DNA of 64,000 bases from Rehaibacterium terrae (GTDB taxonomy: Bacteria > Pseudomonadota > Gammaproteobacteria > Xanthomonadales > Xanthomonadaceae), in assembly GCF_014202935.1 (NCBI RefSeq), contig NZ_JACHHX010000005.1, positions 1-64,000 of the forward strand, read 5' to 3'. The position numbers and the translations under genes were made by a program. Of this stretch, positions 41,854-54,527 are shown piece after piece; positions within the stretch are counted from its first letter, which is position 1, and every line of letters starts with the position of its first letter. A model generated the notes under the pieces. That model did not search any database. It worked only from the letters and a program-made list of their open reading frames with translations, and was not told where the DNA came from.

Positions 41854-42648
41854 TCAGAAGAAGGTGCCGTCGAGCGGCGACGAGGCGCTGGCGTGGCGCT
41901 TGCGCGGAATGCGGCCGGCGAGGAAGGCCTCGCGGCCGGCCTCGACCGCCTTCTTCATCGCGCTCGCCATCAGCACCGGGTGCTTCGCCCCGGCGATGGC
42001 GGTGTTCATCAGCACGCCGTCGCAGCCCAGCTCCATCGCGATGGCGGCGTCCGAAGCGGTGCCGACGCCGGCGTCGACCAGGATCGGCACCTTGGCGTTC
42101 TCGACGATCTCCAGCAGGTTCCACTTGTTCTGGATGCCCAGGCCCGAACCGATCGGCGCGGCCAGCGGCATCACTGCCACACAGCCGATCTCTTCCAGCC
42201 GCTTGGCGACGATCGGATCGTCCGAGGTGTAGACCATCACCTGGAAACCCTCGGCCACCAGCGTCTCGGCGGCCTTGAGCGTCTGCACCACGTCCGGGAA
42301 CAGGGTCTTGGGGTCGCCCAGCACCTCCAGCTTCACCAGCGCATGGCCGTCGAGCAGCTCGCGCGCCAGCCGGCAGGTGCGCACCGCGTCCTCGGCGCTG
42401 TAGCAGCCGGCGGTATTGGGCAGCAGGGTGTATTTCGACGGCGGCAGGACGTCGAGCAGGCTGGGCTGGTCCTTGTCCTGGCCGATGTTGGTGCGGCGGA
42501 TGGCGACGGTGACGATCTCGGCGCCGGCGGCCTCGGTGGCCAGGCGGGTTTCCTCGAAATCCTTGAACTTGCCGGTGCCGGTGAGCAGGCGAGAACGGTA
42601 AGTCTTGCCGGCGATCACCAGCGGGTCGTGCGGGGCGTTCTGATTCAT
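41854..42648 (-). CDS. thiG: Thiazole synthase
   Basis: ThiG forms the thiazole phosphate of thiamine from DXP, ThiS-thiocarboxylate and dehydroglycine. It is 264 residues from [37 protein letters not shown], the Schiff-base lysine in [18 protein letters not shown], and [20 protein letters not shown] are present. The frame runs on upstream through the riboswitch region but that part is not coding. In relatives thiS lies directly upstream; here thiS is 3.1 kb away beyond an inserted plus-strand module. Confidence 0.97.
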
Positions 42649-42737
42649 GTTTGTGCAGCGCGGGGCAGGCGTCCATGGTACCAGCGCCGCCCATCCGCTG
42701 CCCACGCGCCGTTCGTCGGCAACGGACGATCCCGCGC

Positions 42738-42766
42738 TTGTGGCGATGGCCGGGCTGGCGTTGTAT
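42738..42766 (+). promoter_or_regulatory. Possible promoter for the triple-riboswitch transcript
   Basis: TTGTGG (42738-42743) and TTGTAT (42761-42766), 17 bp apart, lie about 20 bp before the first aptamer. This is the only plausible sigma-70-like pair seen in the 140 bp before it. The match is weak. Confidence 0.3.
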
Positions 42767-42786
42767 TCGCGTCTACCTGAAGCGGG

Positions 42787-42867
42787 TGGTTCCGACAAAG
42801 GGCAAGGCCGCAACGGCCGCGCAAAGCCACGGGCCGGGAGCGATCCCGACGGCCGGGCTGCCTGAAC
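42787..42867 (+). promoter_or_regulatory. Cyclic-di-GMP-I (GEMM) riboswitch, copy 1
   Basis: The strand reads GACAAAGGGCAA, then a GGCCG-CAA-CGGCC hairpin, then the conserved GCGCAAAGCCAC (GCAAAGCC at 42821-42828). A GGGCCGGGA/TCCCGACGGCC stem and the closing GGGCTGCCTG follow. This is the GEMM-I consensus order (GGCAA-P2-GCAAAGCC-P3-GGGYTRCC). It is the first of three tandem copies before the secreted-protein gene. Confidence 0.88.
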
Positions 42868-42897
42868 CCTCACCAAGGTGGCGCGGCGTCCCCGCGC

Positions 42898-42992
42898 GGT
42901 CGACAAGGCACACCCGGCGCGAGCCGGGGCCGCAAAGCCAAGGGTCCTGGAATCCGATGTCCCCCTGTTCCCAGGACAGCCCGGCTCCCGAA
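42898..42992 (+). promoter_or_regulatory. Cyclic-di-GMP-I (GEMM) riboswitch, copy 2
   Basis: GACAAGGCACA is followed by CCCGGC-GCGA-GCCGGG, a perfect stem with a GNRA tetraloop. CCGCAAAGCCAAGGG (GCAAAGCC at 42932-42939), a GTCCTGG/CCAGGAC stem and AGCCCGGCTCCCG follow. An AATCCG...CGGATT hairpin enclosing GAGACGC/GCGTCTC lies just after it (42991-43020) and may be its expression platform. Confidence 0.9.
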
Positions 42993-43024
42993 TCCGCCGG
43001 AGACGCGCGCGTCTCGGATTAGGT

Positions 43025-43112
43025 CTCGTCAAGAGCACACCCGGCGTGAGCCGGGGCCGCAAAGCCGACGGATGCTCCCCGACCCCCGGGGGGGATGGCC
43101 GGGCTGCCGAGC
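43025..43112 (+). promoter_or_regulatory. Cyclic-di-GMP-I (GEMM) riboswitch, copy 3
   Basis: GTCAAGAGCACA is followed by CCCGGC-GTGA-GCCGGG (GNRA tetraloop). GCCGCAAAGCCGACGG (GCAAAGCC at 43059-43066), a variable P3 with CCCCC/GGGGG, and GGCCGGGCTGCCGAG complete the aptamer. It ends 66 bp before the ATG of the secreted-protein gene. Confidence 0.9.
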
Positions 43113-43151
43113 GTGGAACAGGGGTTCCGGGGCGGCACAAACCACGCACCC

Positions 43152-43171
43152 GGACTCCGCGTAAGGAGTCC
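43152..43171 (+). promoter_or_regulatory. Shine-Dalgarno-sequestering hairpin
   Basis: GGACTCC (43152-43158) pairs with GGAGTCC (43165-43171) around a 6-nt loop. The right arm contains GGAG of the Shine-Dalgarno AAGGAG, 10 nt before the ATG at 43179. It is placed to act as the translational expression platform of the upstream aptamers (inference). Confidence 0.6.
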
Positions 43172-43178
43172 TGAGACC

Positions 43179-45626
43179 ATGAAACTTCCCAAACTGACCC
43201 ATGGGGCGCTGGCGGCCGCATTGGCCGTGTTCGCACTGGGCACGGGCAGCGCGTACGCCACCCATGTGGATCCCATTCTCGTGGCCGGCAATCCCAACTG
43301 CCCCAGCCAGGGCTTCGGGATCGGCTTCAAGCCCCAGCCCGAGCCGCCACCGGCCGGCACCTACACCATCCCGGGCACCAGCCACACTCTCACCATCACC
43401 TACGTCAGCACCTCGTCGGGCCAGACCTTCGACTGGACCTCGACGCTCGGCATGGACGCGGTGATCGTCAAGGGCGGCCCCAACGCCAACCTCTACGTCT
43501 ACAACCCGCCGGCGGCCAGCCTGGGCGACACCGGGCTGCATGCGCCGGTGAACCCGAACGGACAGTACGCTGGCGTCAGCCACATCGAGTTCTGTCTCGG
43601 TGAGGAACTCGAGCCCAACATCGTCGCCGACAAGCAGATGAGCGGCGAATGGGAGCGCGAGTGGACCTGGGAGCTCGAGAAGACGGTCAGTCCGAACGTG
43701 CTCGACCTGTTCGTCGGCGACAGCCACCAGGTCAAGTACACCATCACGACCAGCGCCGAGGCGGCGGTGACCTATCGCCTGAGCGGCACCATCGTGGTGA
43801 CCGACAGCACCACGCCCAGCCAGGTGCAGAGCTTCGCGGCCTTCGCCGACGTGCTGACCCTGTACGACGCCGCCGACAACGTCGTGGCCACGCTGGACAC
43901 CACCGGCGGGTCGGCGCTCGACCAGAAGTTCGCCGCCGCGCACAGCGGCTGCGACCAGCTCAGCATCTCGGGCACGCAGATCTTCAGCTGTTCGTTCGCA
44001 CTGGAGCTGACCGAGGCCGATATCGCCAACCTGGCCGACGTCCGTCGTGCCGCGAACGAGGCGGTGGTCGAGTTCAACTTCCCGAGCGGCGTCCTGGGCG
44101 CGAGCGACACGGCCGAGTACACGTTCAATGCCAGCCCGGACATCGAGATCGACGAGCAGCTGAACGTCGTCGATCCGGATCTGCCGGCGCTGAACCACGT
44201 GGCCAATGCCCCGGCCGGCAGCGAAGTCTCGGCGAACGCGACCTACACCTGCGACGCAGGCGACCGCCGCGTGACCAACACCGCGACCGGTACCGCCAAC
44301 GACAGCGGCGACGAGGTCAGCGACAGCGCGCACGTCGACATCTACTGCCGCGAGGTCAGCATCGAGAAGACCGCCGATGCCAAGTTCGACCGCACCTACC
44401 GCTGGGAGGCCGACAAGTTCGTGCTCATCTCGGCCGCCAAGTTCGCCGAGCTGGATGCCGAGTACGCCGACACCTGCGAGCTGATCGAGGGCGGCGACCA
44501 CGACGGCAAGTACAAGTGCGAGAAGAGCCTGGTCACGCTGGGCAACAGCCAGACCCTGGGCGTCGAGTACCTGGTGGAGGTCGAGCCGTTCATCGACTTC
44601 GACGACAACTACCGGATCACCGGCAACATCGTCATCAGCTGGCCGCAGGCGCAGCATGGCGGTGCGGGCCCGGATCTGCTGCTGCCGCCGAGCGACGTGA
44701 TCACCTTCCTGGGCGGCGCGACGGTGAATCCGAGCGTGAACTGCGGCGACCCGGTGCTCGACGCGGGCATCTTCACCCGGACCTGCAGCTACGAGTACCA
44801 GAGCGACACCGTGCCGGCGCTGAGCGGCCAGAACGCCGCCACCGTGACGCGCAACGTGAAGTGCTACAACGATCAGGGTGTGGCCAGCAACTGCGGCACG
44901 CAGGCCATCGGCCCGGCGACGGCGAACTTCACCTTCGCGCTGGACGGCACCACCAACGCCTGCGTCGAGGTCGTGGATTACTTCAACAACGACCTGGTGG
45001 GCGACGTGATCGACGCCAACGTCTGTGCGGCCAGCTCCTTCGTGGTGAGCCTGTACAGCGTCAGCGCCAACGATGTCGACGACTACGCGGTGAGGGACGA
45101 AGAGAATTGCCTGTGGACCGTGCCCAACATCGTCATCCTGTTCAGCAAGGACAGCGACGACGAGTGGGTGTCCAGCCAGGCGGACATCGACGTCTCCGTG
45201 CCGAGCCTGTGCCAGACCGGTTGCACGCTCACCCCAGGCTACTGGAAGACGCACTCGGTCTACGGGCCGGCGCCGTACGACGCCACCTGGGCGCTGATCG
45301 GCGAGGACACGCCATTCTTCCTGTCCGGCCAGACCTGGTACCAGGTGCTGTGGACGCCGCCGACGGGTGGCAACGCCTACTACATCCTGGCGCACGCCTA
45401 CATCGCGGCCACGTTGAACACGCTCAACCTGAGCAACCCGGCGATACTCTCGGGCGACCAGCTGGCCGCGTACAACTTCGCGACCTCGGTGTTGAGCAGC
45501 AATACGCCTGCCCAGATCGGCGCGCTGCGCGGCAACAGCGCGCTGCGCAACCAGATCATCGCGGCCGCCGGCGTGCTCGACGCCTGGAACAACGGCATCA
45601 CCGGCCCCGGCCACTGCGACGAATGA
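43179..45626 (+). CDS. Large secreted protein with C-terminal GYWKTH domain, c-di-GMP-controlled
   Basis: This 815-residue protein has a Sec signal ([20 protein letters not shown], then GTGSAYA). The mature chain is acidic and beta-rich, with several Ig-like or DUF11-like modules. Two parts share a W-x-LEKTVSPN / Y-x-W-x-ADKF pattern (about 160 and 400), each followed by VxYTI or VEYLVEV strands. Paired cysteines are scattered through the chain. The C-terminal ~135 residues begin [20 protein letters not shown] and contain aromatic and Asn-rich helices. No sortase, PEP-CTERM or membrane anchor is visible. Three c-di-GMP riboswitches precede it and a terminator follows, so it is a one-gene unit. 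A matrix or surface role is inferred. I do not recognise a named family for the whole protein. Confidence 0.8.
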
Positions 45627-45667: not shown

Positions 45668-45698
45668 CCCCGGCGACGCCAGTCGCCGGGGTTTTTTT
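45668..45698 (+). terminator. Intrinsic terminator of the secreted-protein gene
   Basis: CCCCGGCGAC (45668-45677) and GTCGCCGGGG (45682-45691) form a perfect 10-bp stem with a GCCA loop, followed by seven T. Confidence 0.95.
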
Positions 45699-45743: not shown

Positions 45744-45944
45744 TCACCCGCCGCCGATGGCGTGCACGATCTCCACCCGGTCGCCGTCGGCGAGGCGGTG
45801 CTCGGCGTGGCGGCTGCGCGGGACGATCTCGCGGTTGACCTCGACCGCGACGCGGCGCTCGGCCAGGCCTTCGCTGGCCAGCAGTTCGGCGATGGTGGGG
45901 GCGGCGGGCCATTCGCGCGCCTGGCCGTTGAGGACGATCTGCAT
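45744..45944 (-). CDS. thiS: Sulfur carrier protein ThiS
   Basis: ThiS carries sulfur as a C-terminal thiocarboxylate for thiazole synthesis by ThiG. The 66-residue ubiquitin-like protein runs from [20 protein letters not shown] to HAIGGG, ending in the required Gly-Gly pair. An upstream frame extension of 34 codons overlaps the tRNA and is not coding. It is separated from thiG by the c-di-GMP/secreted-protein module, and the terminator of that module lies 46 bp from its stop. No TPP riboswitch was seen upstream. Confidence 0.92.
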
Positions 45945-46009: not shown

Positions 46010-46083
46010 GCGGGTGTCGTCTAATGGTAAGACAACAGCTTCCCAAGCTGTGAACGTGGGTTCGATTCCCATCACCCGCTCCA
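46010..46083 (+). tRNA. tRNA-Gly (anticodon CCC)
   Basis: The 74-nt gene has an acceptor stem GCGGGTG/CACCCGC and a D arm GTC-TAATGGTAA-GAC. The anticodon stem ACAGC/GCTGT has loop TTCCCAA (anticodon CCC, reading GGG). The T arm is GTGGG-TTCGATT-CCCAT, and CCA is encoded. A hairpin terminator follows at 46091. Confidence 0.97.
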
Positions 46084-54379: not shown

Positions 54380-54450
54380 GGCGTGTGCTCCGTTCGTTGG
54401 CGGGCCCGCGGGACAGTGCGGACGCGATGCGCGTGATGCGCGGCGGCAAC

Positions 54451-54520
54451 GGGCGCCGTTGAATCTTCGTCCCCGCCGAGCCTGGCCGTGCCTTGCGCAC
54501 GGTCGCAGCGCCCCTCGGCG
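54451..54520 (-). promoter_or_regulatory. S-adenosylhomocysteine (SAH) riboswitch upstream of ahcY
   Basis: On the minus strand the leader reads CGCCGAGGGGCGCTGCGACC, then a GTGCGCAAGGCAC hairpin. GGCCAGGCTCGGCGG and AACGGCGCCC follow. These are the SAH aptamer elements in order (GAGGrGCGCUGCRAC, CCAGGCUCGG, AACGGCGCYC), including the pseudoknot half GGCGCCC pairing with GGGCGC. It lies about 70 bp upstream of the ahcY ATG. SAH binding activates expression in known members. Confidence 0.92.
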
Positions 54521-54527
54521 AAGGCGC

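Follow-up and report, generated by a model that had tools for sequence, protein, structure and literature searches.

An apparently composite leader of three cyclic-di-GMP-I aptamers, one with an altered selectivity base, ahead of an exported-protein gene in Rehaibacterium terrae

Introduction

Triple arrays of cyclic-di-GMP-I (GEMM-I) aptamers are rare, yet already known: Sherlock et al. (2022, PMC9481103) catalogued 347 tandem doublets and 12 triplets, and in the Bc3-5 triple-tandem of B. thuringiensis, digital behaviour comes from the own terminator of each copy (PMC4759541). The initial annotation of the stretch of Rehaibacterium terrae DNA analysed here (64,000 nucleotides, hereafter the window) placed such a triplet ahead of one secreted-protein gene and considered triple copies uncommon, which is borne out by the 12 catalogued triplets and by a count in which only this genome, among 397 of the same family, has three.

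The question raised by this locus is whether the three aptamers repeat one switch, read different ligands, or form a composite of unequal parts. The reading favoured here, and held to be fairly probable, is that of a c-di-GMP-sensing composite 5' leader in which three unequal sensors control one exported, beta-rich protein, mainly by translational ON control through a shared platform. Such a locus would be an example of how a multi-aptamer leader is put together from two riboswitch elements, each conserved separately, and would draw attention to a GEMM-I RNA that occurs gene-less in many genera and whose role is directly testable. An array that combines G20 with A20 pockets in a single leader and is drawn from gene-linked and gene-less elements was not found described among the open-access papers searched, which is weak evidence in itself.

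Three full-length aptamers of different build

Scanning of the whole window with cmscan against Rfam 15 (RF01051 gathering score, 35 bits) returned three matches on the forward strand, as anticipated by the annotation, all above the gathering score and all full length (1-87/87), and no RF01051 match exists outside this array in the 34 contigs (2.89 Mb) of the genome. The aptamers and the bordering genes of the locus are as follows.

42791-42865, + strand: aptamer copy 1 (RF01051, 41.9 bits, E 8.2e-5)
42897-42992, + strand: aptamer copy 2 (RF01051, 54.3 bits, E 7.6e-8)
43024-43111, + strand: aptamer copy 3 (RF01051, 43.2 bits, E 4e-5)
43034, + strand: selectivity base of copy 3, A (cmscan alignment, RF01051 model position 11)
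43179-45626, + strand: exported-protein gene, 815 aa, ATG at 43179, monocistronic
41857-42648, - strand: thiG, divergent neighbour and conserved left border (tblastn across relatives)
45747-45944, - strand: thiS, right border of the locus (tblastn across relatives)

A family-specific model, built partly from the window copies and run on 397 family and 300 order genomes, recovered all three copies, copy 1 standing apart at 46 bits (vs 74 and 77), and returned the same loci plus one in G443, a genome from another family of the order. Across the 397 family genomes it disclosed no new strong locus with hidden extra aptamers, weak matches of 26-31 bits also being present.

Copy 1 retains a 5-bp P1 (GGTTC/GAACC) and the core of the binding pocket (G20, G21 C22, GCAAAGCC); its P2 is shortened and lacks a GNRA loop (GGCCG-CAA-CGGCC), no close counterpart exists among the aptamers of relatives, and without that loop its activity may be low or absent. 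The annotation was right about the GCAAAGCC strand and about the tetraloops, GCGA in copy 2 and GTGA in copy 3, but its description is to be amended in two respects, the first being the P2 of copy 1. The second is that the GGCAA/GGCACA strand, claimed for every copy, is not found in copy 3, which has GAGCACA (reading AAGAGCACA) and closes with the P1 CTCG/CGAG. The canonical P3 tetraloop receptor is absent from all three copies, with gaps at those model positions. Membership of copies 2 and 3 in RF03167 (c-di-GMP-I-GGC), a model that likewise has no P3 tetraloop receptor, was rejected: the scores of 53.7 and 42.6 bits fall below the cut-off of 59, and that model has G where the window copies have A47 (GCGAA vs GCAAA).

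The exported-protein gene

The secreted-protein gene proposed downstream is a reasonable assignment, given a signal-peptide-like N-terminus from the ATG at 43179, followed by domains rich in beta strands and, at the C-terminus, by a Cys-containing domain (TPGYWKTH...GPGHC) that is strongly conserved in 15 of 15 aligned sequences. An intrinsic terminator lies 3' of the gene, and the unit is therefore regarded as monocistronic; this terminator is a strong one, so that the organism does use intrinsic terminators.

45668-45698, + strand: intrinsic terminator, CCCCGGCGAC-GCCA-GTCGCCGGGG-TTTTTTT (read from the sequence)

Homologues were found in 9 other genomes among the 199 family genomes searched, those with GEMM-I upstream being about 31-36% identical, and a GEMM-I aptamer stands directly upstream of every full-length family homologue examined, as well as in seven more genomes of genus g17 reached via the aptamer. 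A scan of genome contigs found one relative of the protein, from Chloroflexi, on a locus that does not extend to its upstream region; Pfam and NCBIfam yielded nothing above cut-off and a PDB fold search nothing usable, and the AlphaFold model is of low confidence (pLDDT 66). Export, architecture and the presumed control by c-di-GMP together suggest that the protein probably has a surface, matrix or adhesion role.

A composite of two separately conserved elements

Comparison with relatives resolves the aptamers into two kinds. The D-type, with P1 CTCG/CGAG near the start codon, includes copy 3 and occurs beside the exported-protein gene in 15 relatives; the U-type, with P1 GCGGTACG...ACCGC, includes copy 2, as judged by alignment and synteny. 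The U-type lies 5' of the D-type aptamer in G035 and G008, each with two tandem aptamers, whereas G013 and 12 genomes of genus g17 have a single aptamer before the gene. In 15 further genomes the U-type occurs by itself in the thiG-thiS interval; the next recognised gene is thiS, within about 0.5 kb on the opposite strand, and this locus carries no homologue of the exported protein in any of these genomes. Judged from sequence and gene order, the array is a composite of separately conserved aptamer kinds.

The association also extends beyond the family, since G443 carries two A20 aptamers ahead of a 31% identical homologue of the exported protein (locus L156), with neighbours, named from sequence as truB and pnp, that differ from those of the window; aptamer and gene thus move together between sites. 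Upstream of a D-type aptamer in locus L061 (genome G181), at a distance of about 120 nt, the palindrome TGTGATTGCAATCACA (near 2332-2347) resembles a CRP/Clp site; in this bacterial group, Clp responds to c-di-GMP as a regulator.

The lone U-type elements (loci L076, L079, L080, L108, L110-L113 and L115-L121) are distributed over many genera as gene-less GEMM-I RNAs on the strand opposite to thiS-thiG. Like the merRNA of Bdellovibrio bacteriovorus, they comprise a c-di-GMP riboswitch RNA without a recognised downstream gene, small ORFs being possible; merRNA, however, is 445 nt long, massively expressed and restricted to Bdellovibrio (PMC3627812), whereas the U-type is compact and occupies the thiG-thiS interval in many genera.

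The U-type is preceded by a hairpin, GCGCGATG/CATCGCGC, whose pairs are kept in 12-17 of 17 aligned sequences, and a counterpart stands just ahead of copy 2.

42881-42897, + strand: hairpin GCGCGGCGTCCCCGCGC, counterpart of the U-type pre-aptamer hairpin (alignment)

The 5' arm of this hairpin has two equally possible partners, its own 3' arm and a repeat of that arm beyond the aptamer, and the A-T/G-C exchanges at one flank pair are compatible with both pairings. In G099, G126, G151 and G170 a terminator hairpin with U6-U8 is completed by this second arm, and the 5' arm of that terminator in G099 (ACCGC) is the P1 3' strand itself. No strong U run follows the U-type in the three genomes with a gene behind it, which would fit a need for polymerase read-through; as several lone elements are likewise without one, the comparison is no more than suggestive.

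A further feature of the U-type is a CCCCTG motif about 75-95 nt before the GCAAAG core in 15 of 18 elements (for example L117 and L110), against a mean of 1.4 in mononucleotide shuffles, the sequences being related; it is possibly a promoter or another site. The same motif occurs in copy 2 of the window, as TCCCCCTGTTCCC inside the P3 loop (42960-42972).

As to the function of the gene-less U-type RNA, a tentative proposal is that it acts as a free-standing cyclic-dinucleotide RNA, in trans or as a sponge, or else switches thiS as a ligand-gated antisense element, with position 20 repeatedly changed (G, A or C), and that it was drafted into the mixed G20/A20 leader of the window.

A probable single translational platform

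How the leader transmits its signal must be read from the sequence around and beyond the aptamers, in which no intrinsic terminator-like site (0 in 42600-43300) and, across the array region, no promoter-like site was found. The structures considered are as follows.

42991-43020, + strand: hairpin AATCC(GCCG)GAGACG-CGCG-CGTCTC-GGATT (fold, -13.5 kcal/mol), overlapping the P1 3' strand of copy 2
43108-43147, + strand: candidate start of the platform, with the P1 3' strand CGAG (43108-43111), GCGTGG (43111-43116) and CCACGC (43142-43147), read from the sequence
43152-43171, + strand: 7-bp hairpin GGACTCC-GCGTAA-GGAGTCC around the Shine-Dalgarno sequence AAGGAG (43163-43168), from the computed ensemble

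GCGTGG overlaps the CGAG of copy 3 by one base and can pair with CCACGC; the resulting duplex amounts to -9.3 kcal/mol, but is absent from the computed ensemble. A hairpin overlapping the D-type P1 recurs in relatives (GAGCG/CGCTC, CGAGG/CCTCG). In the free ensemble the GGAG of the Shine-Dalgarno sequence is unpaired with a probability near zero, and in a two-state fold of copy 3 with the platform its hairpin stayed closed both with and without the aptamer enforced, no switching being seen, so that the direction of the switch is inferred rather than computed. An apparent closing helix beside the AUG, GGUCUC/GAGACC, is unconserved in G008 and G013 and was treated as chance.

The absence of terminators in the array, the Shine-Dalgarno sequence within a hairpin and the recurrence of a P1-overlapping hairpin together favour one shared translational platform, which is the likely arrangement; control of the leader by Rho or by pausing is possible. 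Ligand binding stabilises P1 in GEMM-I switches (PMC4759541). In the proposed mechanism, copy 3, adjoining the ribosome-binding site, would be the gene's own riboswitch of the D-type, and its P1 would compete with a hairpin in the stretch ahead of the start codon; stabilisation of P1 by the ligand would free the leader, giving an ON switch, a direction also predicted from the overlap of P1 with a terminator in several U-type elements and in the first G443 aptamer. Control in the window would then be mainly translational, through one platform served by copy 3. Copy 2 would derive from a U-type element and copy 1 would be an additional, more divergent aptamer, the two possibly acting through the fold or the abundance of the leader.

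An alternative is a conventional triplet in which every aptamer is an independent c-di-GMP ON switch with an attenuator to itself, so that control is steep and digital, as in Bc3-5. This design is documented in B. thuringiensis, where three c-di-GMP-I aptamers likewise share one 5' UTR with a proposed ON logic (PMC4759541), and P1-overlapping terminators do occur in some U-type relatives and in the first G443 aptamer, which runs into a terminator-like GCCG...CGGC-ATTTTT hairpin. In Bc3-5, however, each copy is complete with a terminator and the three switches are similar (PMC4759541), whereas the window has one Shine-Dalgarno hairpin, an A20 in copy 3 and no U-run terminator between or after its copies: where several relatives have terminators, the hairpin at 42991-43020 is followed by AGGTC. 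With no terminator found for each aptamer, as a pseudo-cooperative tandem would have, and platforms of another type being possible, this alternative is unlikely. The steep or multi-threshold control by c-di-GMP suggested in the initial annotation stays a possibility only, in view of the missing terminators and of the altered selectivity base of copy 3, so that the response to a given ligand may differ between copies.

The selectivity base and the ligand of copy 3

The RF01051 model position 11, the base before the paired GC, is taken here to be Vc2 G20. In this numbering, which agrees with PMC6274999 and PMC9481103, copies 1 and 2 have G20 (at 42801 and 42907, respectively), A47 and C92, and copy 3 has A20, A47 and C92. 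Identity of this ligand-contact base as G or A separates c-di-GMP from c-AMP-GMP binding (PMC9481103); the equivalent position is A14, the final J1/2 base before P2, and the Vc2 mutant G20A binds 3',3'-cGAMP (PMC6274999). An A at the selectivity base is accordingly a known GEMM-Ib signature (PMC9481103, PMC6274999), and copy 3 displays it on a GEMM-I scaffold (AAGAGCA).

The base is variable in both conserved kinds of element and constant elsewhere: G, A and C were counted in 8, 6 and 4 of 18 U-type elements and in 13, 2 and 1 of 16 D-type elements, so that 13 of these 34 are non-G, and all ten GEMM-I RNAs at other loci have G. The diverged G081 element (GCAAAA) was left out of this set. Positions 21-23 and 45-50 are invariant in the collected set, partly by construction, as the parser demanded GCA and GCAAAG; A20 is always accompanied by G19, and C20 by A19. 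A weakly resolved thiG tree requires at least 8 changes at position 20 in the 18 U-type elements, and A, C and G all occur inside one genus, g59. Beside the exported-protein gene, A20 is found also in G013 and in both G443 aptamers.

Two known systems are close in this respect. In the Desulfobacca acetoxidans series, as here, an aptamer class is repeated and neighbouring GEMM-I RNAs differ at the selectivity base, but there the c-AMP-GMP variant is paired with an AdoCbl riboswitch in a cluster apart, whereas the window joins G20 and A20 in one leader (PMC9481103). The GEMM-Ib or 3',3'-cGAMP riboswitches of Geobacter, some of them tandem, have A at the selectivity base, but Geobacter possesses a Hypr GGDEF enzyme (GacA), whereas none was found in the window genome, and copies 1 and 2 have G (PMC6456294).

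These parallels bring up an array of mixed ligands, in which copies 1 and 2 would sense c-di-GMP and copy 3 3',3'-cGAMP, the leader integrating two second messengers. The GEMM-Ib signature and its recurrence beside the gene in G013 and in both G443 aptamers, as well as in six U-type elements, speak for it, but the synthases expected of such a system were not found. Hypr GGDEF domains have Ser instead of Asp at the specificity position (PMC6456294), and all 30 GGDEF domains of the genome that match the motif parser have the canonical Asp there (PleD D344), those outside the parser, read by eye, including some with Asp and a few that are degenerate. A degenerate-codon search for the Ser motif was negative in the window genome, in 12 of 14 relatives and in G443, with candidate matches in G098 and G126, and SMODS CD-NTases were not found in the window genome and gave no match above cut-off in those A20 relatives that were searched; neither known kind of 3',3'-cGAMP synthase was thus found in this genome by these searches. 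Furthermore, position 20 also turns to C and flips within one genus, which looks like drift, and an A20 aptamer can still bind c-di-GMP (PMC9481103). Altogether, a second ligand is improbable.

The favoured reading is therefore that copy 3 probably still senses c-di-GMP, more weakly, both because no cGAMP synthase was found and because in a natural GEMM-I aptamer the same G-to-A change improved c-AMP-GMP binding while perhaps only slightly weakening that of c-di-GMP (PMC9481103). With binding kept and affinity shifted, the copies of the leader would act as unequal sensors of c-di-GMP. As to the origin of the signal, the diguanylate cyclase at 2682 proposed in the initial annotation has nothing special about it, in a genome with 36 GGDEF-domain places, a high density for 2.9 Mb. 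The locus and its relatives provide a natural series in which the base setting the preference between c-di-GMP and c-AMP-GMP differs within one leader and flips among close relatives, the rest of the pocket being kept, and they pose the question of whether this base tunes affinity, changes the ligand or is simply tolerated.

In another reading, copy 3 works alone or together with copy 2, copy 1 and the base changes are products of decay, and the triplet has no special behaviour. This is very improbable: copy 1 does have the lowest family-model score and no GNRA loop, and one or two copies suffice in relatives, but copy 1 retains both its pocket core and its 5-bp P1.

Other RNA features of the window

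Two further RNA features were detected by cmscan, namely an SAH riboswitch at 54444-54522 on the - strand (65.8 bits) and, just past thiS, a tRNA gene at 46010-46080 on the + strand, whose anticodon loop CTTCCCAA reads as Gly-CCC.
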